A DNA stretch of 54,957 bases, taken from Candidatus Chlorohelix allophototropha. Its GTDB lineage: Bacteria; Chloroflexota; Chloroflexia; Chloroheliales; Chloroheliaceae. How positions within the stretch are numbered: position 1 is the first letter of the stretch; each line of letters opens with the position of its first letter. The position numbers and the translations under genes were made by a program. Below, one piece after another: positions 16,927-39,241 of the stretch. The notes under the pieces are model-generated. The model was given only the letters and a program-made list of their open reading frames with translations. It was not told where the DNA came from and ran no database searches. Location: contig NZ_CP128403.1 of assembly GCF_030389965.1 (NCBI RefSeq), positions 1-54,957 on the forward strand. The letters are read 5' to 3'.

Positions 16927-17054
16927 TGTCACGTTTCTCCTACCGCCTACCACTAATTTAGTGACTTCCCCATAATATCCTATAGAGGATAAAGAGTAAC
17001 TAGGCGCATGAAAAAACCCACAATACCAGGCATGTGAAAGGCTATGAAATATTA

Positions 17055-17162
17055 CCAGCGTTTGCCGAAAATAGCATGTTTTTGAGTCTGACAAAATTGT
17101 TTTAAGCTCAGTTATTCGGCAAAGGGTACTGAAGAAATGTGTAAAGCATCATATGAGCTAGT
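17055..17162. mobile_element. MITE copy related to 22791-22931, left end diverged
   Basis: About 108 bp nearly identical to 22822-22931, including inner inverted repeats TTTGCCGAA / TTCGGCAAA and the right end GCATCATATGAGCTAGT. The left terminal repeat is not recognisable, so this copy is probably partial. Confidence 0.75.
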
Positions 17163-18258
17163 CTGTACTCATGATGTACTGCTTCTCTCTCACAAGGTAA
17201 CGATACGCCGGGATGATGATAAGCCAGATTGGAGCAACTTAACCGTGTTCCATATGGAGGGCAGTTATTGCTAAGTGGATCACACGTTGCTTGGAAAAGT
17301 GATTGCCGGCTATACGTTTGCAGCGTTGGTATGGAAATAGCTAGCTAAACCTCAAAACAATCTAACGGTTTTGGGCAAGCTTCGTTCACGTAGAGCCAAT
17401 TACCCCACCTGACCCATCCCCGGATTTGAACGCAGGATTTGCGACAATTGTATTATAGGCATATCAACCATAAGACAAGTGCATCATATATAAGGGTGGC
17501 GATATGCAATAAAAATATATGGGTGTGAAAGATTCAAATAGTTTTACTCTATAGTGTTTTTTAAAGCTATGAAAGGTTTACATTATCACGATGTGCAATT
17601 AATGTATTAAAAAAGTGGAATTTTGGCATAGCTAGTATGCGTGTTTATAATACAATTCGCTGCTTATTATTTTGACCTTAGTTTAAAATCCTAGGCATGC
17701 TCAAAAGTGAGATGTAAGGTTAATAAGACGGTTGGCTTAGAAAACCCAGAGAAACGTGGCGGCACTTCGCCCTTCTCCAGCACCATTCGCTCTTTTTCAC
17801 TGCTCTCTACCGAGCAACAACCAGAATTGCTATCTATCCCTTCAAAATTAAAGATTATTTTCCCACATGTGTATTTTTGATAGGCAAAATTCTTTGTTTG
17901 GAAGCATAGACCACCAAAGCATTAAAATGCTAAGGGTGTTCCAGTTGGCCCCCACCGAGCAGCTTTAATTGGTAATTCTCACCACCACTACCCTGCCATA
18001 TACCCCATAGGGCTTTTGAGAAAGAGCGACCCGCGAGAATGAACCTGCCCAGAAAATTTTATATATTCGGACTTTTTGAAGTGGTACTTCAATAGCCAGC
18101 TAAGTTTTGGTGGCTGACCCTAAAAGTCCTCGAAGAAACCCAGCTCATAAAAGTGACTTCTGGAAGAAGAAGTGAGAATGGATTAGCAGATAGTTCCAAC
18201 ACTTACACTCTTCTTCCGGTTCCTAGAAATACGTTGTTGCACACAGCAACACTAATAA
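17163..18258. other. Gene-poor, decayed DNA
   Basis: About 1.1 kb with frequent stops in all frames and no convincing start or motif. A T-arm-like stretch at 17410-17440 (minus strand GTTCAAATCCGGGG) does not fold into a tRNA. Probably remains of older genes or mobile elements. Confidence 0.6.
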
Positions 18259-19629: not shown

Positions 19630-19811
19630 TATACCACGCGCCAATAAGCTGACTACCTCTTTTTGGAGCGGCGCTTCGCGCTTTCGGAATTCTCTTTACT
19701 CCTTACCCCTTTGACCTTTCCCTACCCCTAGTTCTTTGGGTTAGTTAATTTAGAGGAAAGAGCGCCAGAGACTCAGAGTTCAGAGGATTCAGAGTTCAGA
19801 GGGGCGCATAG
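19630..19811 (-). repeat. VR-downstream element, copy next to VR2
   Basis: On the minus strand, about 180 bp right after VR2 is nearly the same as 38645-38828 after VR1. Both share CTCTGAA heptamer repeats, GGCGCTCTT, AATTAACTAACCCAAAGAACT, GGTAAGGAGTAAAGAGAATT, a GCGCGAAGCGC hairpin and AGCTTATTGGC. Known DGRs need structured DNA just downstream of the VR for target recognition, and this may serve that purpose. The first 23 bases are still coding. Confidence 0.8.
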
Positions 19812-22632
19812 AGGACGACACCACCACCCGAAAACCAAAATAGTCGTAATCGTTGACAGGGTTGAAGTTGACGCGGAACACACAGGACGCAATAGCTACA
19901 TTGGAGTTGAAAGACCCGCCCCGCAGCACTCGACTATCTCCGCTACCATCCACCACCACTTCCGAAGGCTTCCCATACTTGTTCAAGCACCACTCCCACA
20001 AGTTTCCGCTCATATCCAACGCCCCGCATTTCGCCGCCCCTTGCGGGTACATGCCCACGCCCACCGCCCGGTTCAGCCCCGCCTCTGCGGTATTGGCATA
20101 GCCTTCTCGCCACTCCTCGCCCCATGGGTACTCCCGCGCTTCCGCGCCCCCCTGCGCCGCCCACTGCCATTCCCATTCCGTAGGCAGCCGTATCTGCGCG
20201 TTTTCACCTACTACTAAAAGCTTGCCCTGAGAATCGCCCACATCCGGAAATTGCCAGCCCCTATACCGCTTATTCAACCACCGCCCATATGCTACGCTCT
20301 GATACCACGAGATAGTATCGCGCGGGTTGTTCCACGCTTTGGTGCGCGGTTCATCCAGCTGGTAATCCTTGGGAAAGCCTTGCCACCACTCCCGGTTCTG
20401 GTAGCCGTCCGCCGCTTTCACAAACGCCTCATACTGGGCATAGGTTATCTGGTATTGCCCGATGTAAAACGGCGCTACCTTGAAACTCTCCTTCTCTATT
20501 TCCAGCTTCCCGCCCGGCGCTACCGCCATCCACGCTATCTCCGGCGTGCCGTCTTCTCGCACTCCTATCCCCCTCCGCGTGTCCCCGATTACACTCAATC
20601 TTCGCCCTATCTCATCCCGGCGCAGATGGCTGGTTCGCAACAGATTTGTTTCTCGCAGCAATCGCTCCTGCTCAGGCTCAATGAAATCTTCTTCGAGCGG
20701 GTTAGGTTTCCATTTCAACCGTTCCTGCATCGCATATACCATCAACAACCGCTCCTGTGACCAGCGCCACGCCTCCGGTTTGCCCTGCCACACCCAGTCT
20801 GCCGCTCCGTTCTGCACCTGCCGCCTCAGAATCAGGTCATCTTGGTATTCCTCTATCCATTTCTGCAACCGCCCCCAACTCCTGAACAAAGTCTCGTGCG
20901 CTACCTCAACCTGAGTTTCGTCCTTCACCAGCAACCGCGCCTGCGTAAAAGCCTCCACCAGCGCCAATTCCTCTGCCCCAAAACAGTCGTGCCGTACCCG
21001 CTGCCGCGTTGCCGCAAACTGTCCTTTCACTTCTTCCACTGTCACCAGTTCCCGGAATACCTGCCCCAACAACCGTGTTTTTCCCGCTTCCTCGCCCGGT
21101 AGCTTCTCGAAAACTTGCTCTGCCCTCTTCCCAATTGCCCCTTCTACCTTTCCTAACGCCTCGTAATCCGCATAGGTCAGGCGGTTGTCCCCTCGCGTCA
21201 TCGCTATCTTGTACAACTCATCCAAAAGATATGCCAACAATGCCAGCGAGCCTGCCTCACTCCCGGTGTCTCGTAAAATCAGTGAGGGTAGTCCTCGTTC
21301 AAATTCCAGAGTCGCCATTTCCGCCGGGCGTTCTATCATCTGCAACAATGCACCCGGATTTGGCGCAGACAGGTAGAAAGTACCCTTGTTCAACAGTTCA
21401 GCCAGTATGGGATTTTCGATGGCGCGATGTACAAAGTCGTGCCTTATTGTTACCAACACCCGCATGCTGGGATGCTCCGCCAATTCGCTTAGCATCTGAA
21501 TAAAAGGTTCAATCGTATCTTTCTGTGACAGCGTAAACAATTCCTCGAATTGGTCTATGAACAGCAGCACTTCCGCCCATTCCGGTGCTTTGGCGCTCTC
21601 CAGTGCGGTATTGAGCAGCTTACCTAACGTTGCCGGATTGCGGGTTATTTCTTCCACGAAGGCTTGCTTGTCCTTGGGCAAGGGCGCAAAGCTCTTGTTG
21701 ATGCCATCGAATAAAGCATCAAACGGCTCTTTTCCCGGCGTGAACTGCACCACCCGCCAGTCCTTGCTACCCGGAATAGCGTTCGTTTCCAGTCGTGGCA
21801 ATAGCCCTGCCCCCACCAGCGATGATTTCCCACTCCCAGATGCCCCCACCACCGCTACAAAGCGGCTCTCCACCACCTTCCGCACCAACGCATCGGTTTC
21901 CGCTTCTCGCCCGAAGAAGATGGGCGCATCGGTTCTCTTGAAGGAACGTAGTCCCGGAAAGGGCGAGCCTTCCCACTTCTTAGTGGCTATAATCTGCGTT
22001 TCAGGTGCAAGATTTGGGGATAGAATTGACAGTGGCTGAGCAGCCTGACGTTCCAGCAGTTTCAGCACGGTACTTTCGAGGTCGGTTTCAAATTGTTTCT
22101 TGAAGTCGGCAGGACTCTTGTATTTGTTGACCCCGCGCCGGATTTGTCCGGTAGCGGAATCATAGAACAGGTCGCTCTTGAAAAAACTCTTTACCTTCTT
22201 ATCTTGGGCGATACCTTCATCATCGTCAGAATCAAACAGCTTTTTCTCGGTGCGGCGATAGATGAGTGGGTAGGTCTGGGGATTGTTCAGCGCGTTCAGC
22301 AGTTCGTAATGAGTACCGGAAAGATAATCTACTCCTTTATAACTAAAAGGGGTACCCATCCTCGACCACAATATCACCACCACAATGTCACATTCAGAGG
22401 GTTTGGGTAGCCCAGCGTCAATCGCTTCTTGCGGAGTCATTCTGGCATCCATCGGCACACCTGCACCCGGCTTGTCCCATGCCACCGGACGGAAACTCAG
22501 TTTTTCACGGAACACAGGGCGGTTCAGCAGCCATTCCAGCACTTCCAGCACAGCTTGTCGTTCTTCTGGCACATCGCCGGGTGAGGATACGAACACTCTG
22601 AAAAGAGGTGGTGGTGGTAACTTTTCTGGCAT
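19789..22632 (-). CDS. DUF4062 - nSTAND1 NTPase - FGE-sulfatase protein, DGR target
   Basis: A 947-residue signalling NTPase. Residues 8-100 are DUF4062 (L-F-R-V-F-V-S-S-P-G-D-V-P-E-E-R, a TIR-like fold). The nSTAND1 module opens with W-E-G-S-P-F-P-G-L-R-S-F and has Walker A G-A-S-G-S-G-K-S-S with K269, then Walker B L-L-F-I-D-Q-F-E-E-L-F. A winged helix/linker region follows, then a C-terminal FGE-sulfatase domain (about 690-947) with L-P-T-E-W-E-W-Q-W-A and D-M-S-G-N-L-W-E-W-C. Residues 903-941 are encoded by variable repeat 2. Likely a ligand-sensing, ATP-switched conflict protein. The ATG at 22632 follows GGAGAAGG. It is a tandem paralogue of the gene at 22881. Confidence 0.9.
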   Translation of the reverse strand: MPEKLPPPPLFRVFVSSPGDVPEERQAVLEVLEWLLNRPVFREKLSFRPVAWDKPGAGVPMDARMTPQEAIDAGLPKPSECDIVVVILWSRMGTPFSYKGVDYLSGTHYELLNALNNPQTYPLIYRRTEKKLFDSDDDEGIAQDKKVKSFFKSDLFYDSATGQIRRGVNKYKSPADFKKQFETDLESTVLKLLERQAAQPLSILSPNLAPETQIIATKKWEGSPFPGLRSFKRTDAPIFFGREAETDALVRKVVESRFVAVVGASGSGKSSLVGAGLLPRLETNAIPGSKDWRVVQFTPGKEPFDALFDGINKSFAPLPKDKQAFVEEITRNPATLGKLLNTALESAKAPEWAEVLLFIDQFEELFTLSQKDTIEPFIQMLSELAEHPSMRVLVTIRHDFVHRAIENPILAELLNKGTFYLSAPNPGALLQMIERPAEMATLEFERGLPSLILRDTGSEAGSLALLAYLLDELYKIAMTRGDNRLTYADYEALGKVEGAIGKRAEQVFEKLPGEEAGKTRLLGQVFRELVTVEEVKGQFAATRQRVRHDCFGAEELALVEAFTQARLLVKDETQVEVAHETLFRSWGRLQKWIEEYQDDLILRRQVQNGAADWVWQGKPEAWRWSQERLLMVYAMQERLKWKPNPLEEDFIEPEQERLLRETNLLRTSHLRRDEIGRRLSVIGDTRRGIGVREDGTPEIAWMAVAPGGKLEIEKESFKVAPFYIGQYQITYAQYEAFVKAADGYQNREWWQGFPKDYQLDEPRTKAWNNPRDTISWYQSVAYGRWLNKRYRGWQFPDVGDSQGKLLVVGENAQIRLPTEWEWQWAAQGGAEAREYPWGEEWREGYANTAEAGLNRAVGVGMYPQGAAKCGALDMSGNLWEWCLNKYGKPSEVVVDGSGDSRVLRGGSFNSNVAIASCVFRVNFNPVNDYDYFGFRVVVSSSMRPSEL
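19812..19926 (-). repeat. DGR variable repeat 2 (VR2)
   Basis: 115 bp, gap-free against the template at 38873-38987. Of 21 differences, 15 fall on template adenines. The frame gives G-G-S-F-N-S-N-V-A-I-A-S-C-V-F-R and then V-N-F-N-P-V-N-D-Y-D-Y-F-G-F-R. The first 21 bases are identical to the template. Confidence 0.88.
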
Positions 22633-22678
22633 CAACCTTCTCCAATGTAAAGTTTAGTGGTAACGCAACTGCGGTTTA

Positions 22679-22684
22679 ATTATA
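22679..22684 (-). promoter_or_regulatory. -10 box TATAAT of the first nSTAND gene
   Basis: Perfect TATAAT on the minus strand 47 bases before the ATG, inside a roughly 70-bp stretch that is conserved upstream of both nSTAND paralogues (compare 25822). The -35 region is weak. Confidence 0.5.
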
Positions 22685-22737
22685 GCGCACGCTCAAAGCC
22701 TTTTCCATTTCGCCTTAGCCAAGCCGCTCCTGCAAGA

Positions 22738-22777
22738 ACGCCAGAGGCTCAGAATTCAGAGATTTCAGAGTACCGCC
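22738..22777 (-). repeat. Displaced fragment of the VR-downstream element
   Basis: The minus strand reads ACTCTGAAATCTCTGAATTCTG then AGCCTCTGGCG, matching the start of the element that directly follows VR1 and VR2. Here it is separated from VR3 by the MITE 22791-22931, so it is the original VR3 downstream region pushed away. The rest of the element is not recognisable. Confidence 0.65.
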
Positions 22778-22790
22778 TACACAACATCAG

Positions 22791-22931
22791 ACTAGCTCAC
22801 AACATACTTTACATATATCTTCACCAGCGTTTGCCGAAAATAGCATGTTTTTGAGGCTAATAAAATTGTTTTTAGCTCAGTTATTCGGCAAATAGTACTG
22901 AAGGAATGTGTAAAGCATCATATGAGCTAGT
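22791..22931. mobile_element. 141-bp MITE inserted at the 3' boundary of VR3
   Basis: Ends: ACTAGCTCACAACATACTTT at 22791 and the reverse complement ACTAGCTCATATGATGCTTT at 22931, imperfect inverted repeats that extend inward about 50 bp through TTTGCCGAA / TTCGGCAAA. ACACAACA occurs just outside both ends (22779-22786 and 22935-22942), a possible target duplication. The insertion replaces the end of the FGE gene with 16 codons from the element. Confidence 0.75.
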
Positions 22932-25775
22932 TTCACACAACACCACCCGAAAACCGAAACCGCTGAGACCGCTGTCCGCGCCGCTGCTACCGCGGTACAC
23001 ACAGGACGCAAGGGCAAGAGTGCTGCCGAAAGAGCCACCTCGCACCACTCGAGAGTCGTCACTATCGTCCACCGCCACTTCCTCCGGCTTCTGGTACTTG
23101 TTCAAGCACCACTCGCGCAAGTTCCCGCTCATATCTAACGCCCCGCATTTCGCCGCTCCCTGCGGATACATTCCCACTGCCGTTACTCGGTTCAAGCCCG
23201 CTCCCTCGGTATTAGCGTAACCCTCTTGCCACCCACCCCACGGGTATTTGCGTTCTTCCTCGCCACCTTGCGCTGCCCACTGCCACTCCCACTCGGTCGG
23301 CAGCCGTATCTGCGCGTTTCCTCCCACCACTAAAGGCTTGCTCCCACCGCCCGGTTGTGCCAATTCCAGACCGCGCAGACGACTATTCACCCAGCGCGTA
23401 AACGCCACGCTCTGATACCACGAAATAGTATCGCGTGGGTAGTTCGTCAAGCGGGTACTTTGGTTGCGTAACTCTTGAGGCTGGTATTTCTTCGGAAAGC
23501 CCTGCCACCACTCCGGGTTCTGATATCCGCCCGGTGCTTGTACGAAAGCCCTGTACTGAGCATAGGTTACTTGGTATTGAGCAATATAGAAAGGTTCTAC
23601 CTTGAAACTTTCTTTTTTGTATTCTATTTTCACTTCCCCACCCGGCGCAACGGGCAGCCACACTATAGCGGGTGTGCCATCTTCCCGCACACCCACTCCC
23701 TGCCGCGTGTCGCCTATAACCCCCAACCGCCGCCCAATCTCATCTCGGCGGTCGTGTGTGGTAGTCAGCTTGTCTTTTTCCCGCAAAAGTCGCGCCTGTT
23801 CCGGCTCGATGAAGGCAAGCTCGGTTGCTTCCGGGGTCCACTCCAACCGTTTCTGCATCGCATACACTGGCTCTAGCCGTTCGTTCAGCCACAACCACGA
23901 GTCGGGTTTGCCCCGCCTTGCCCACTCCGCCGCTCCGTTCTGCACCTGCCGCCGCAGTAGCAAATCATCCCGATAATCCTCTATCCATTTTTTCAACTGC
24001 TCCCAGCTTCGGAACAACTCTTCGTGCGCTACTTCCACCTGCGCTTTGTCCATTACCAGCAATCGTGCTTTGGTAAATGCCTCTACCAGCGCCATTTCCT
24101 CTGCCCCAAAACGGTCATACCCGGCGCGTTGGCGGGTGGCAGTGCCGCGCTCATCCACCTCCACCAGTTCCCGGAAGACCTGACCCAGCAACTGCTTTTT
24201 GGCTTCTTCCTGGCCCGGCAACTTCTCGAAAGTCTGCTCCGCTCGCCTGCCGATTGCGCCCTTTACTCCACCCAGCGCGTTGTAATCCGCATAAGTCAGG
24301 CAACGGTCGTGTCGGGTGTCTGCAACCTTATACAGTTCGTCCAGCAGGTACGCCAGCAACGCCAACGAACCCGCATCGCTGCCCATATCATGCAATATAT
24401 CGGCGCGTAGTCCGGGCGCAAATTCCAGCGCGGCTATTTCCGCCGGACGCTCAATCATCAGAGACAAAGCAGCATGGGTGGGCGCAGAGAGATAAAATGT
24501 ACCCTGATTGAGTAACTCCGCCAGCAGGGGGTTTTCAACGGCGCGATGCACAAAGTCATGGCGTATTGTAACCACCACCCGTAAGCGAGGCTGCTCAGCC
24601 AAGGCGCTTAACATCCGGGCAAAGGGTTCCACCGAATCTTTCTGTGTCGGAGCAAACAGTTCCTCGAACTGGTCAATGAACAGCAATATCTCCGCCCATT
24701 CCGGCTTATCCGCCAGCACCCGTAGCAACTGCTTTACAGCTTCCTGTGGCGATTGCACTAACTTCTGCGCCAACGGGTGAGGCTCTTCGTCCAACAGCGG
24801 GGCAAGCTTCACCGCCAGCGCCAGAAAGGGGTCATTGCCCAGCTCTCCGGGTGTAAAGCGCAACCCGTTCCAACCCTTGCCCTGCTCATAATCGGGCAGC
24901 AACCAGTCCTTACTTCCGGTATCGGCATCACTGATAGCGTTCGCGGCTAAGCGAGGCAACAAGCCTGCTCCCACCAACGATGATTTGCCGCTGCCCGATG
25001 CGCCCACCACTGCCACGAAGCGGCTCTCTTTTACCCGCTTGACCAGTGCATCGGTTTCCGTCTCACGTCCGAAGAAGATGGGGGTATCGGCTCGCCGGAA
25101 AGCGCGTAAGCCGGGAAAGGGCGAACCTTCCCACTTTTTAGTGGTGATGACAGGCTCATTCGGCTTTATAACAGGCGCAACCGGACGCTCAGGCGGACGC
25201 TCCAACAAGCGTTTTACGATGTCTTCTAGGTCGGTCTCAAATTCTTTTTTGAACTTAGCAGGGCTGGCGTATTTTTTCACGCTGCGCCGAATTTGTCTGA
25301 TGGCGGGATTTTTGAACAATTCACTGTCGAAGAAGTTTTGTACCTTCTTGTATTGCGCTATGCCTTCATCATCGTCAGCCTCAAATAGCTTTTTCTCGTC
25401 ACGGCGGTAGATTAGTGTAAAGGTCTGGGGGTTGCTTAGGGCATCTAGCAGTTCGTAATGAGTGCCGGAGAGGTAATCCACCCCATCGTTATGCTTATAA
25501 GGCGTTCCCATTCGCGACCACAGAATTACCACCACAATGTCGCATTCAGAGGGTTTGGGTAGCCCGGCGTTAATCGCTTCCTGTGGAGACATATTGGCAG
25601 GCATAGCCGTACCAGCTCCTGGCTTGTCCCATGCCACCACTCGAAAGTTCACCTTTTCACGTAAAAGGGGACGGTTGGGCAGACCCTCCACTACTTCCAG
25701 TACAGCCTGTCGTTCTTCCGGCACATCTCCGGGTGAGGATACAAATACTCTGAAAAGAGGTGGGTTTTCTGGCAT
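22881..25775 (-). CDS. DUF4062 - nSTAND1 NTPase - FGE-sulfatase protein, paralogue with MITE-derived tail
   Basis: A 964-residue paralogue of the protein at 19789 with the same order: DUF4062 (5-105), nSTAND1 with Walker A G-A-S-G-S-G-K-S-S (K264) and L-L-F-I-D-Q-F-E-E-L-F, linker, then FGE-sulfatase (about 700-947). Variable repeat 3 encodes residues 911-947. The last 17 residues are E then T-S-S-Y-D-A-L-H-I-P-S-V-L-F-A-E, read from the MITE. The ATG at 25775 is preferred over 25781 because GGAGA lies 7 bases before it. The promoter region is duplicated together with the gene, so the pair arose by tandem duplication of the whole unit. Confidence 0.9.
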   Translation of the reverse strand: MPENPPLFRVFVSSPGDVPEERQAVLEVVEGLPNRPLLREKVNFRVVAWDKPGAGTAMPANMSPQEAINAGLPKPSECDIVVVILWSRMGTPYKHNDGVDYLSGTHYELLDALSNPQTFTLIYRRDEKKLFEADDDEGIAQYKKVQNFFDSELFKNPAIRQIRRSVKKYASPAKFKKEFETDLEDIVKRLLERPPERPVAPVIKPNEPVITTKKWEGSPFPGLRAFRRADTPIFFGRETETDALVKRVKESRFVAVVGASGSGKSSLVGAGLLPRLAANAISDADTGSKDWLLPDYEQGKGWNGLRFTPGELGNDPFLALAVKLAPLLDEEPHPLAQKLVQSPQEAVKQLLRVLADKPEWAEILLFIDQFEELFAPTQKDSVEPFARMLSALAEQPRLRVVVTIRHDFVHRAVENPLLAELLNQGTFYLSAPTHAALSLMIERPAEIAALEFAPGLRADILHDMGSDAGSLALLAYLLDELYKVADTRHDRCLTYADYNALGGVKGAIGRRAEQTFEKLPGQEEAKKQLLGQVFRELVEVDERGTATRQRAGYDRFGAEEMALVEAFTKARLLVMDKAQVEVAHEELFRSWEQLKKWIEDYRDDLLLRRQVQNGAAEWARRGKPDSWLWLNERLEPVYAMQKRLEWTPEATELAFIEPEQARLLREKDKLTTTHDRRDEIGRRLGVIGDTRQGVGVREDGTPAIVWLPVAPGGEVKIEYKKESFKVEPFYIAQYQVTYAQYRAFVQAPGGYQNPEWWQGFPKKYQPQELRNQSTRLTNYPRDTISWYQSVAFTRWVNSRLRGLELAQPGGGSKPLVVGGNAQIRLPTEWEWQWAAQGGEEERKYPWGGWQEGYANTEGAGLNRVTAVGMYPQGAAKCGALDMSGNLREWCLNKYQKPEEVAVDDSDDSRVVRGGSFGSTLALASCVYRGSSGADSGLSGFGFRVVLCETSSYDALHIPSVLFAE
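22931..23045 (-). repeat. DGR variable repeat 3 (VR3), degenerate
   Basis: Gap-free alignment to the template, with 23 changes at template adenines but also about 14 at other bases plus a lost end (template TCC reads GAA, then the MITE starts). It gives G-G-S-F-G-S-T-L-A-L-A-S-C-V-Y-R. The excess of non-adenine changes suggests it has not been rewritten for a long time. Confidence 0.75.
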
Positions 25776-25821
25776 TAACATTCTCCAGCATGAAGTTTAG
25801 CTGTAACGCAACTGCGGTTTA

Positions 25822-35499: not shown

Positions 35500-38400
35500 A
35501 TGCCAACCCTTTTCATCTCATACAAACGGGGAACAACCGTAGTCGCGCCCTTGATGGAGAAGTTGAAAGAAACTGGCTACCGCCTGTGGTTCGACCGGGA
35601 GGACATTCATCTGGGCGACCCAAGCTGGAAGGCTAGAATTGACGCAGGATTGGAGCAATGCGAAGGGGTAATTCTGTGTATCTCTCCGGCAGCGTGTCAG
35701 TCCGAGCCTATAAGGTACGAAGTGTGCAAGGCATTGGAATTTAAGAAGCCTATATTCCCAATAATCTTGGAGAAAGTGGAGAGCGCCAGCGCCGCAATAG
35801 CGGATTTGGGACTACCGGGGGAACAGCACTTAGAAGATTTCACGGATGTGACGCGCTGGCAGGAAAATCTGGAGAAGCTGCGGAAGGGTCTGGAAGCGCA
35901 GGGCTTGCGGGTAACACGGCACGACCGTCGTAAGGAGCGCAATACACAGGAATACGCCCTGCACCAGCGCTACCTGAAAAAGCTGGCAGAGCGGGTAGGG
36001 CTGCTGAACTTGGCGCACGTAAACGAGGCAGAGAAGCGTGGCATCGAACTGGAGAAAGTGTACGTGGACTCGCCCACAGCTTTGAGTATCAGCCTAGAGG
36101 TGAAGGATTGGCGGGTGATTGACTGGTGGCTCTCGCGAAGTGACCAGCCTGCACGCGAGTTGCCGGGTGAGGACAAAGCGCCGAAGCGCACCAGAGTGGA
36201 GGAAATGGGCTACGAACGCTCTCCCTTTGAGGTTCTAATCGGGGGAGTGGATGAAGAGATAGCACGCTATCGGGAAGAAAACCCTCATGCAAAACCTGAT
36301 GAGAAATATTCTTGGAATAATCCTTGGAACAACGGGGTCAAAGAAAACCAGACCCATTTGCACCTGACGCATTTAGCGGCAGGGTGTGACCGGTTGGTAA
36401 TCTTGGGAGCGCCGGGCAGCGGGAAAAGCACCTTCGTGAAGTATCTGGCATTGTGCTTGGCAGGGGCGGGGATTGAGGGCTGGAATCGGGCTGCCAATCT
36501 GAACTCGCTAGAGAACTGGACACACGGGGCATTAACGCCGGTGTACGTTGAACTGCGCCGCTTTGTGGCATCAACCTACTTTCCCTCGAAGATAAGCGAA
36601 CCGGCAACCGCCCAACACCTATGGAAATACATCGAAGGGGAGCTATTGGGCGAGGGATTGGAAACCTATGCCTCTGAGCTTGAATATGACTTGGAACAAG
36701 GACACGCCCTGCTAATACTGGACGGGCTGGACGAAGTACCCTACCCGGAAGGCAAACTCAAAGAACGGCAGACGCAAATAATCAACTTGGCGCAGAGTTT
36801 GCACACTCGCTTTGCAGGCAGCCGGGTAATCGTCGCCAGCCGCCCTTATGCCTATCAGGGTTGGAGCTTGCCCGACTATGAGGCGGTGACAATAAGCGAA
36901 TTTGAAGAAGAACACCGGATAGAATTAGCCAGCCGCCTATATCGAGCAATGGGCTTGAGTGAGGAAGAAGCGCAGGCAAAGGCGGAGGCGCTGAACGAGC
37001 AGCTAGAAGAAATAGATGATGAGTTGAAAGACCGCCCCTTGTTCGTGACTTTGATGGCAACCTTGTATCTGAAGGGTGGAGAAGACGGGTTGCCAAGTCG
37101 AAAGGGGGCATTGTACCGGGAGAGCATCCTGCTGCTGTTGGAACGGTGGGGCAAGAGCAAACCGGGTTCACCATCACTGGTGGAGATACTGGGGGATAAA
37201 AGCGTAGCGGACTTATACGGGCGATTGGCAGCCTTGGCATATGCAGTGCAGGGGAGTAGCGAAGGAAGGGAACAAGCGGCAGAGATAGATGAAAGCTTGT
37301 TGTACAAACATCTCAAACCATTGGGACGAGAGGTAGCGGCGGAACTAATCCCATATTTGTGCGAAAACGCAGGGGTGCTGGTAGCGCCGGGACAGCGAGG
37401 AGAAGAAGAAATCTTTCACTATGCCCACCGAAGCTTTCAAGAGTATCTAGCGGCGGTACATCTGGTGAAGCTATGTCGGGACAGCGATAGCTTCAAGCCG
37501 GTGCAGGCACAGCTATTGGAAAAGCCGGAAACGTGGCGAGTAGTGTGCTGTTTTGTGGGGGATGTGCTGGCGGATACGAAGAAGAAAAGTGAGATTTGGT
37601 TACTACTGGCAGATTTGTTGGAAGAAGAAGAAATACCTGAAAAAAGGGAAGACCTGCGCTGGTGGCTAATATGGCTGGCAGCAACGATAGCGCAGGAGCA
37701 GGAAATCTGTGGGCTGGAAAAAGCCAAACGCAGCAATGACCGAAGCACCCTAAAAAAGATGGTGGAATGGCTGAAAGCTTTGCTGGGAACGGTACAGGCG
37801 TTGGGAGCGGTGGAACGAGCGGAGTGCGGACGGGCATTGGGCTTGTTGGGAGACCTGCGCAAAGGGGTGGGGACGAAGCCGTATAAATTGGCAGGACGGG
37901 AGGTAGAACTGCCAGAACTAGAATGGTGCGACATAGGAGCGTCGGAAGGTGGGAAGTTTGTGATGGGTTCAGATGACTGGGAAGATAACCCGCGCCGGGA
38001 AATGGAGTTGGGGTACAGCTACCGAATGACGAAGTACCTAATCACATACGGGCAGTATCAGACATTTGCGGAGAGTGGAGAATACGAGCAGGCGGAATGG
38101 TGGGAGGGTTTCCCAGAGGAATATCAGCCGCAGAAGCTAGACCAGGACTATATGAAAGAGAACAACCGACCGCGAGACTATGTAAGTTGGTATCAGTCGG
38201 TGGCGTTTACGCGATGGTTGACGGTGAAATACCGAGCAGCGGGAGAGATAGGGGTAAACGAAGAAATACGGCTGCCAACGGAGGCAGAATGGGAGTATGC
38301 GGCAAGGGGAGTTGACGAGCGGAAGTACCCCTATGGGAACGAGTTTGATGGGACGAAGGGAAATACAGATGAAACGGGGATAGGGGCAACGAGCGCGGTG

Positions 38401-38667
38401 GGGAGCTTCCCGGATGGGGCATCGCCATTTGGGGTGCTGGATATGAGTGGGAACGTGTGGGAGTGGTGCTTGAATAAGTACAAAGAGCCGGAGGAAGTGG
38501 GGGTGGACGAGAGCGGGGACAATCGAGTGCTGCGGGGCGGTTCTTGCCTCGACGATGGAGCTCGTGCGTCCTGTGTGTTCCGCAACTACGACTACCCTTA
38601 CGGCGATGACTACTTTATTGGTTTTCGGTTGGTGGTGTGTTCCGCTATGCGCCACTCTGAACTCTGA
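35500..38667 (+). CDS. TIR - NACHT NTPase - FGE-sulfatase protein, DGR target
   Basis: A 1055-residue immune-type sensor. Residues 1-130 are a TIR domain (T-L-F-I-S-Y-K-R, L-W-F-D-R-E-D, C-I-S-P-A-A, with E74 in R-Y-E-V-C at the NADase glutamate position). The NACHT-type NTPase has Walker A G-A-P-G-S-G-K-S-T (K309) and Walker B L-L-I-L-D-G-L-D-E-V (D408), then S-R-P-Y-A, and H-R-S-F-Q-E-Y-L-A-A, typical of NACHT proteins. A helical region follows, then FGE-sulfatase (about 800-1055) with L-P-T-E-A-E-W-E-Y-A and D-M-S-G-N-V-W-E-W-C. Residues 1011-1049 are variable repeat 1. The expected mode is ligand binding by the variable FGE face, NTP-driven assembly, then TIR cleavage of NAD+ (inference from family). 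Confidence 0.9.
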   Translation: MPTLFISYKRGTTVVAPLMEKLKETGYRLWFDREDIHLGDPSWKARIDAGLEQCEGVILCISPAACQSEPIRYEVCKALEFKKPIFPIILEKVESASAAIADLGLPGEQHLEDFTDVTRWQENLEKLRKGLEAQGLRVTRHDRRKERNTQEYALHQRYLKKLAERVGLLNLAHVNEAEKRGIELEKVYVDSPTALSISLEVKDWRVIDWWLSRSDQPARELPGEDKAPKRTRVEEMGYERSPFEVLIGGVDEEIARYREENPHAKPDEKYSWNNPWNNGVKENQTHLHLTHLAAGCDRLVILGAPGSGKSTFVKYLALCLAGAGIEGWNRAANLNSLENWTHGALTPVYVELRRFVASTYFPSKISEPATAQHLWKYIEGELLGEGLETYASELEYDLEQGHALLILDGLDEVPYPEGKLKERQTQIINLAQSLHTRFAGSRVIVASRPYAYQGWSLPDYEAVTISEFEEEHRIELASRLYRAMGLSEEEAQAKAEALNEQLEEIDDELKDRPLFVTLMATLYLKGGEDGLPSRKGALYRESILLLLERWGKSKPGSPSLVEILGDKSVADLYGRLAALAYAVQGSSEGREQAAEIDESLLYKHLKPLGREVAAELIPYLCENAGVLVAPGQRGEEEIFHYAHRSFQEYLAAVHLVKLCRDSDSFKPVQAQLLEKPETWRVVCCFVGDVLADTKKKSEIWLLLADLLEEEEIPEKREDLRWWLIWLAATIAQEQEICGLEKAKRSNDRSTLKKMVEWLKALLGTVQALGAVERAECGRALGLLGDLRKGVGTKPYKLAGREVELPELEWCDIGASEGGKFVMGSDDWEDNPRREMELGYSYRMTKYLITYGQYQTFAESGEYEQAEWWEGFPEEYQPQKLDQDYMKENNRPRDYVSWYQSVAFTRWLTVKYRAAGEIGVNEEIRLPTEAEWEYAARGVDERKYPYGNEFDGTKGNTDETGIGATSAVGSFPDGASPFGVLDMSGNVWEWCLNKYKEPEEVGVDESGDNRVLRGGSCLDDGARASCVFRNYDYPYGDDYFIGFRLVVCSAMRHSEL
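38530..38644 (+). repeat. DGR variable repeat 1 (VR1)
   Basis: 115 bp without gaps against the template 229 bases downstream. 22 differences: 18 at template adenines (to G, T or C) and 4 elsewhere. Asn codons of the template become Leu, Asp, Arg, Tyr, Gly and Phe. The last 16 bases, TTGGTGGTGTGTTCCG, are identical and mark the initiation end. Closest VR to the template. Confidence 0.92.
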
Positions 38668-38828
38668 ATTCTCTGAACTCTGAGCCTCTGGCGCTCTTTT
38701 CTCTAAATTAACTAACCCAAAGAACTGGGGAAAGGGTAAAGTCAAGGGGGTAAGGAGTAAAGAGAATTCCGAAAGCGCGAAGCGCCGCCCGAAAAAGGGG
38801 TAGTCAGCTTATTGGCTCGTGATATAAT
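38645..38828 (+). repeat. VR-downstream element, copy next to VR1
   Basis: About 184 bp shared with the region after VR2 (19630-19811, minus). Contains four CTCTGAA-type heptamers, GGCGCTCTT, a GCGCGAAGCGC mini-hairpin, and ends at TATAAT. Only the first 23 bases are coding. Confidence 0.8.
38823..38828 (+). promoter_or_regulatory. -10 box TATAAT before the template repeat
   Basis: A perfect TATAAT 45 bases before the template, followed by hairpin CCCGGT-CAGGCT-ACCGGG (38849-38866). It could drive the noncoding template RNA; the -35 region is not convincing. Confidence 0.4.
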
Positions 38829-38872
38829 GGGGTTGCTGGGTTTATTAGCCCGGTCAGGCTACCGGGAAGGTT

Positions 38873-38987
38873 CTGCGGGGCGGGTCTTTCAACAACAATG
38901 AAGCTAATGCGTCCTGTGCGTACCGCAACAACAACAACCCTAACAACGATAACAACAATATTGGGTTTCGGTTGGTGGTGTGTTCCG
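38873..38987 (+). repeat. DGR template repeat (TR)
   Basis: Reads, in the frame of the FGE domains, G-G-S-F-N-N-N-E-A-N-A-S-C-A-Y-R, then N-N-N-N-P-N-N-D-N-N-N, then I-G-F-R-L-V-V. It has 15 AAC/AAT codons, with no start codon and no gene of its own. AAY codons at variable positions are the standard template design of DGRs, since adenine changes there reach many residues but never a stop. No RT or Avd gene follows: 38988-39241 is noncoding. Confidence 0.93.
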
Positions 38988-39241
38988 ATGACCTGCCTAC
39001 CCTTCAGAGGGCGCAACCTTCAGGGGTTGAGCTTGCTTCCAGAAATGTCGTGCGATTACGGTTTCACGTCCGAGGAGAAGGCGGCAGGATAGCGCCGGTG
39101 GGTCTGGTCTGCGCGTGCAAACGCCAGGCACATATCTAATAACGGGCGCAGCCTGGATTCGCTCCCGCTGGGCCTTTACTCTTTCTCAAGCCTTGGAAGG
39201 TTATAAAAGCAGACAGGCTCCATGCGCGCTAAGGAGTGGTG
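38988..39241. other. Noncoding stretch after the template repeat
   Basis: 254 bases where a DGR would usually carry its RT gene or template-RNA spacer. No RT motif is present. It includes the direct repeat 39174-39206 and the RBS of the DUF433 gene. It may be the spacer part of the template RNA. Confidence 0.5.
39174..39206. repeat. Direct repeat flanking the DUF433/DUF5615 module, copy 1
   Basis: CTTTACTCTTTCTCAAGCCT then TGGAAGGTT; repeated at 39831-39863 with a few changes. Copy 2 includes the stop codon of the SLOG-SLATT gene, so copy 1 looks like a duplicate of that gene's end. Confidence 0.65.

Follow-up and report, generated by a model that had tools for sequence, protein, structure and literature searches.

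In the Bordetella phage BPP-1 system, a stem-loop downstream of the target is needed for efficient retrohoming (PMC3240598), and removal of the stem-loop in a tested DGR caused a severe but incomplete loss of homing (PMC12875486). The degradation of DGR parts by MITE-like elements has already been described: in Thiohalocapsa PB-PSB1, MITE-like repeats and transposons have replaced parts of the RT or of the template (PMC10907252). The closed genome of Ca. Chlorohelix allophototropha L227-S17 comprises two chromosomes (2.96 and 2.45 Mb), a 375-kb chromid and two plasmids of 241 and 55 kb (PMC10972752). Here, we analyse contig C5 of this genome (54,957 bp, referred to as the window; five contigs totalling 6.09 Mb), in which a MITE-like element occupies the 3′ end of a target repeat, VR3. 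We consider it probable (roughly 0.7) that the element was a late hit on an already diverged VR3, the RT having been lost independently and all VRs probably being frozen.

Searching the genome with the template sequence as query yielded 14 VR-like matches, of which 13, including VR3, are gap-free, and the approximately fourteen VRs are carried by FGE-domain genes. VR3 and its relevant counterparts in the window are as follows:

22881..25781, minus strand: VR3 target gene, 966 aa, with a DUF4062, an nSTAND1 NTPase and a C-terminal FGE-sulfatase (C-type-lectin-like) domain that contains the VR (Pfam scan, translation)
22935..23045, minus strand: VR3, homologous to TR columns 38873-38983 (template alignment, A-directed excess)
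19818..19929, minus strand: VR of the tandem paralogue of the VR3 gene (gene 19789-22635; Pfam scan, alignment to TR)
38527..38644, plus strand: VR of a TIR-NACHT-FGE gene (35500-38667; Pfam scan, alignment to TR)
38747..39138, plus strand: stand-alone template block with a TATAAT-type promoter-like site (38801-38828), the TR (~38870-38988) and a conserved 3′ spacer (sequence comparison)

The VR3 gene and its neighbour (19789-22635) are tandem paralogues within 19789-25781 on the minus strand, sharing 67% amino-acid identity. At the position where the FGE motif GN(L/V)WEW usually has Trp, the VR3 gene alone has Arg, and a few paralogues have Leu or Glu. Outside the VR, no acceleration of the FGE domain of the VR3 gene was seen (relative-rate chi2 <= 1.1). 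No related plasmids with or without the MITE were found, all plasmid matches having less than 60% identity and none covering 80% of the query; the nearest genome homologues (54% and 51% amino-acid identity) are in L227-5C. An Rfam scan of the window gave zero matches.

VR3 is, as the initial annotation had proposed, a template copy that has diverged, with 67% identity to the TR (~38870-38988) over 110 bp (template match 38866-38993). Its changes fall on 23 of 31 template A sites and on 13 of 77 non-A sites (Fisher p = 2.7e-8), and because they concentrate at template adenines, we regard VR3 as a DGR target, now or formerly. Counted on the 110-column core of the template common to the thirteen gap-free VRs, VR3 differs at 14 non-A sites from the plasmid template (TR5) and at 14 from the second template (TR2), with 13 explained by neither TR. 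In VR3, as in most VRs here, the non-A positions are not identical to those of a present template; since they match neither template in the genome, we file VR3 as a former target. G at template-A columns dominates three VRs (VR3, 15/31; C2:2145694-2145801, 21/31; C2:2147223-2147337, 15/31), which give Gly/Ser-rich loops; most other VRs favour T.

The difference counts agree with those reported before, about 14 for VR3 against 4 and 6 for the other two VRs of the window: on the core, VR3 has 14 and the 38.5-kb and 19.8-kb VRs have 4 and 4, the latter reaching 6 if extended to the TTCCG end. The VR3 count is not exceptional, however. Across the 13 gap-free VRs, the counts of non-A differences relative to the plasmid template run 4, 4, 6, 7, 9, 9, 10, 11, 11, 12, 14, 14 and 15, VR3 being one of the 14s, and two of the 12 others (14 and 15) equal or exceed VR3 without carrying a MITE. 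When differences from both templates are considered, VR3, at 13, is second only to a VR with 15. The central tract (38885-38963) holds 6 of its non-A differences, a mid-range number (0-12), and about half of the total falls at the two repeat ends. The VR at C1:2541 kb has 12 non-A differences despite an intact, directly adjacent hairpin and no MITE.

Most of the VR3 differences are, moreover, shared. Eleven of the 13 core non-A differences are found identically in at least one other VR and two are private, a level of sharing that has a binomial p of 2e-6 under random private changes, or 0.002 with the count restricted to variable columns, both values assuming independent VRs in a small sample. 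At column 38900, ten VRs including VR3 have C, and both TRs and three VRs have G; G at 38941 and C at 38962 are likewise non-template bases that recur in several VRs. The non-A distance between VRs does not correlate with the distance between their flanks (Mantel rho -0.02, p = 0.57, the VRs again being treated as independent), which is what overwriting of VRs from templates would produce. As VR similarity does not track flank similarity, simple descent explains the shared bases poorly, whereas an older or lost template would explain them.

A transposed element separates VR3 from its downstream structure, as had been recognized, leaving a target duplication on both sides and a remnant of that structure beyond:

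22787..22934, no strand assigned: MITE-like element, 148 bp, near-palindromic, of non-coding type, with TIRs (T)CAGACTAGCTCA / GAAACTAGCTCA (DNA fold z = -5.5)
22935..22942, no strand assigned: 8-bp target-site duplication, VR3-side copy, ACACAACA (direct repeat)
22779..22786, no strand assigned: 8-bp target-site duplication, remnant-side copy, ACACAACA (direct repeat)
17054..17165, no strand assigned: second MITE copy, left-truncated, 94% identical over 109 bp (17054-17162; 7/109 differences)

The duplication ACACAACA is perfect (8/8) and abuts both ends of the element, and these ends are thereby fixed at 22787-22934. The palindromic MITE-like element proposed at the 3′ end of VR3 is thus present, but it measures 148 bp rather than 141 bp ending at 22931, and the duplication places its insertion point not at the VR boundary but within the TR-homologous 3′ end of VR3 (IMH-like tract; GGTGTTGTGT). 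The VR3 gene does end in MITE-derived sequence, which contributes the last 17 codons (GAA to GAA) plus the stop TAA instead of 16 codons. The 148-bp near-palindrome, the flanking 8-bp repeat and the sister copies together are good evidence of transposition. Further copies from the genome search are a 78% copy on C3 and a terminal-only copy on C1 (C1:2806640-2806680), in which both ends are joined and the interior is absent; copy number is low, with approximately four recognizable copies, mostly partial. Among 60 relatives, the only match was one of 51 bp (81%) in one genome. Although the TIRs and palindromic fold, the target-site duplication and the multiple copies are those of a MITE, we use the label ‘MITE-like’ because no longer element sharing these ends, as a parent or autonomous partner, was seen in the genome search or in the 60 relatives; the parent may be absent or diverged.

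Beyond the element lies what remains of the hairpin that follows other VRs:

38648..38694, plus strand: intact downstream hairpin (GCGCC...GGCGC) behind the 38527-38644 VR (fold z = -5.2, no shuffle as good)
22734..22778, minus strand: remnant of the VR-downstream hairpin element at VR3 (alignment, fold z = -1.2)

The element downstream of the 19.8-kb VR also folds as a hairpin closed by GCGCC/GGCGC. At VR3, 38 bp (22734-22771) match the element behind the 38.5-kb VR at 92% identity, confirming the remnant of the initial annotation. The remnant is damaged: the segment with the left arm (GCGCC) is deleted, the right arm reads GGCGT instead of GGCGC (C-to-T), and the fold is no longer significant (z = -1.2). 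The 3′ signal of VR3 is therefore not intact, its IMH-like tract being split by the MITE and a hairpin arm being deleted. For these two reasons VR3 is probably a poor target, and because the hairpin has also lost an arm, targeting would not necessarily return if only the MITE were removed. The palindromic repeat GGGCGTATTCAAATACGCCC occurs in exact or near-exact copies just downstream of four VRs with a truncated or missing hairpin element. It has 24 exact copies, all within C2:1779295-2353679, and, being a general repeat, was rejected as a substitute hairpin behind chromosomal VRs.

Across the genome, non-A differences are fewer in the five VRs whose hairpin is intact than in the other eight (one-sided Mann-Whitney p = 0.038, with hairpin classes assigned by eye from sequences and folds and much of the trend driven by two plasmid VRs). 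The trend has p = 0.060 without VR3 and 0.061 in the central tract. The general idea of a role for the hairpin signal thus survives weakly, as a suggestion only.

The sister copy of the MITE offers a yardstick for what could have accumulated after the insertion. On the assumption of similar mutation rates, and taking the full distance to one sister copy, its divergence of 7/109 predicts at most ~5 changes in 77 columns (P(>=13) = 0.001), and the two private changes of VR3 fit this expectation. Because this divergence is too small for 13 changes, the differences would be older than the insertion, and the MITE looks younger than the non-A differences of VR3, an age estimate based on a single sister copy and the 8-bp duplication.

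The templates persist in the genome apart from any recognizable enzyme. The plasmid template block is 93% identical over 395 bp to a second block at C2:643582-643976 (TR2 match C2:643703-643828), and no third template was found in a genome search. The template 3′ spacer is conserved (74%) also downstream of the DGR RT gene of a relative, G002, whose complete cassette contains an FGE target, an Avd-like ORF, an RT with LPIGNLTSQ, a homologous TR and the conserved spacer; this cassette fits the Ca. Chloroheliaceae MAG L227-5C, JACAUC010000130.1 (15,243 bp). In L227-S17, an RVT_1 profile search of the genome returned only RTs of 561 and 623 residues, whose length, HNH domain and QGTAQGGVISP-type motif led us to read them as group II intron RTs. 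Queries with RVT_1, BPP-1 bRT and G002 RT revealed no DGR RT, the latter two queries matching the same RT proteins, and none of the three genome-wide matches to a GNLTSQ-type motif lies in an RT-like frame. The G002 Avd-like ORF had no match in the genome, in a search run without a positive control. The G002 RT query did give an 18-residue match, GFVVYPDYRRLKRRNTVN, 78% identical, at C2:639898-639951 on the minus strand (L062 5898-5951), with an E value of 0.003 locally and 0.026 genome-wide. The match lies 3.7 kb from template 2, next to a fragment of a transposase and with stops close on both sides, and is a probable relic of a DGR reverse transcriptase. The genome would most likely represent a DGR that lost its enzyme, with all VRs frozen, the absence of the RT being based on a sequence search of a closed genome. 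VR3 therefore provides no contrast with active VRs, as no RT was found and rewriting may have stopped everywhere. The ‘natural experiment’ that had been seen in VR3 lacks its active control, and its hairpin is broken besides being displaced.

How, then, did VR3 come to differ so much from the template? The history first proposed, in which rewriting stopped once the MITE had separated VR3 from its 3′ signal and the repeat then drifted to 14 non-adenine differences, seems unlikely to us. The MITE with its target duplication inside the 3′ end of VR3 and the displaced and broken hairpin fit it, as do the importance of the downstream stem-loop for homing (PMC3240598, PMC12875486) and the somewhat higher non-A differences of hairpin-less VRs. 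Drift caused by the separation is not supported, however, by the differences themselves, as only 2 of the 13-14 are private to VR3, 11 of 13 being shared with MITE-free VRs, and about half lie at the repeat ends, outside the central tract. The divergence of the MITE is too low for such a count, the hairpin-bearing VR at C1:2541 kb reaches 12 differences, and no RT was found, so there are no active VRs with which to contrast VR3. Less probable still is that the region was never a DGR target and is the loop of an FGE paralogue whose resemblance to the template stems solely from descent. In favour of this reading, the identity between VR3 and the TR is just 67%, and FGE proteins naturally carry a loop similar to that of VR3; against it, the changes are strongly concentrated at template adenines (p = 2.7e-8), and an IMH-like tract and a downstream hairpin remnant are present.

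A possibility that we rate at somewhat below even odds, and that is compatible with a late MITE hit, is that VR3 is the fossil of a different, lost template and that the MITE is incidental. Identical non-template bases turn up in many VRs (C at 38900 in ten, G at 38941 and C at 38962 in several), the distances between VRs do not follow those between their flanks, and the persistence of two slightly different templates indicates that templates do diverge; against it, no third template was found in the genome, and the sharing could stem in part from common descent or convergent constraint on the FGE fold. In the reading that we prefer, with the MITE as a late hit on an already diverged repeat, a DGR would have diversified approximately fourteen FGE-gene VRs in trans and VR3 would have been heavily rewritten in the past. 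VR3, like most VRs, would last have been rewritten from, or be descended from, an older template state rather than the present plasmid template. Later, the MITE would have inserted into the IMH-like 3′ end, and the hairpin would have lost an arm, in either order; either damage would probably disable VR3 as a target. The DGR RT would have been lost independently, with two template blocks and a small relic remaining. The MITE would thus be a late disabling hit on one target and not the cause of its divergence. We infer the older template state, for which no template carrying the shared non-A bases was found, as well as the losses of target function and of activity.

Both the MITE and the loss of the signal at VR3 are nevertheless real and merit recording. 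A dispersed hypermutation system may decay piecemeal, with target signals and enzyme lost separately, and non-adenine difference counts against one template are no clock for the end of rewriting. Comparing VRs with and without a downstream hairpin in one genome is more useful than VR3 alone. It is doubtful, although conceivable, that the approximately fourteen VRs and two template RNAs (one promoter-like site) are usable by an RT in trans, for example from an incoming plasmid, while mobile elements and repeats strip 3′ signals VR by VR.

The element at VR3 resembles bacterial MITEs in being short, non-coding and palindromic, with TIRs, an 8-bp target duplication and more than one copy; unlike them, it has approximately four recognizable copies, most of them partial, and no autonomous partner with the same ends was found. 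As in the BPP-1 target (PMC3240598), a TR-like 3′ end is followed by a hairpin-forming inverted repeat, which here consists of a GC outer stem of 5-6 bp, an inner stem with imperfect pairing and a longer loop region, in contrast to the 8-bp stem and 4-nt loop of BPP-1 (PMC3240598); also unlike BPP-1, neither RT nor Avd adjoins the template. The G002 cassette shares the host family, an FGE target, a homologous TR and the conserved 3′ spacer (74%) but, in contrast to the genome studied here, keeps together the Avd-like ORF, the LPIGNLTSQ-bearing RT and the TR. The DGR loci of Thiohalocapsa PB-PSB1 similarly have many targets per genome, some apparently diversified in trans (PMC10907252), with FGE/C-type-lectin domains fused to nSTAND1/NACHT sensors (PMC10907252). 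Unlike L227-S17, Thiohalocapsa keeps RT genes, and its diversification is seen in metagenomes (PMC10907252); and whereas mobile elements there have struck RT or template parts (PMC10907252), here the MITE has struck the 3′ end of a target VR.
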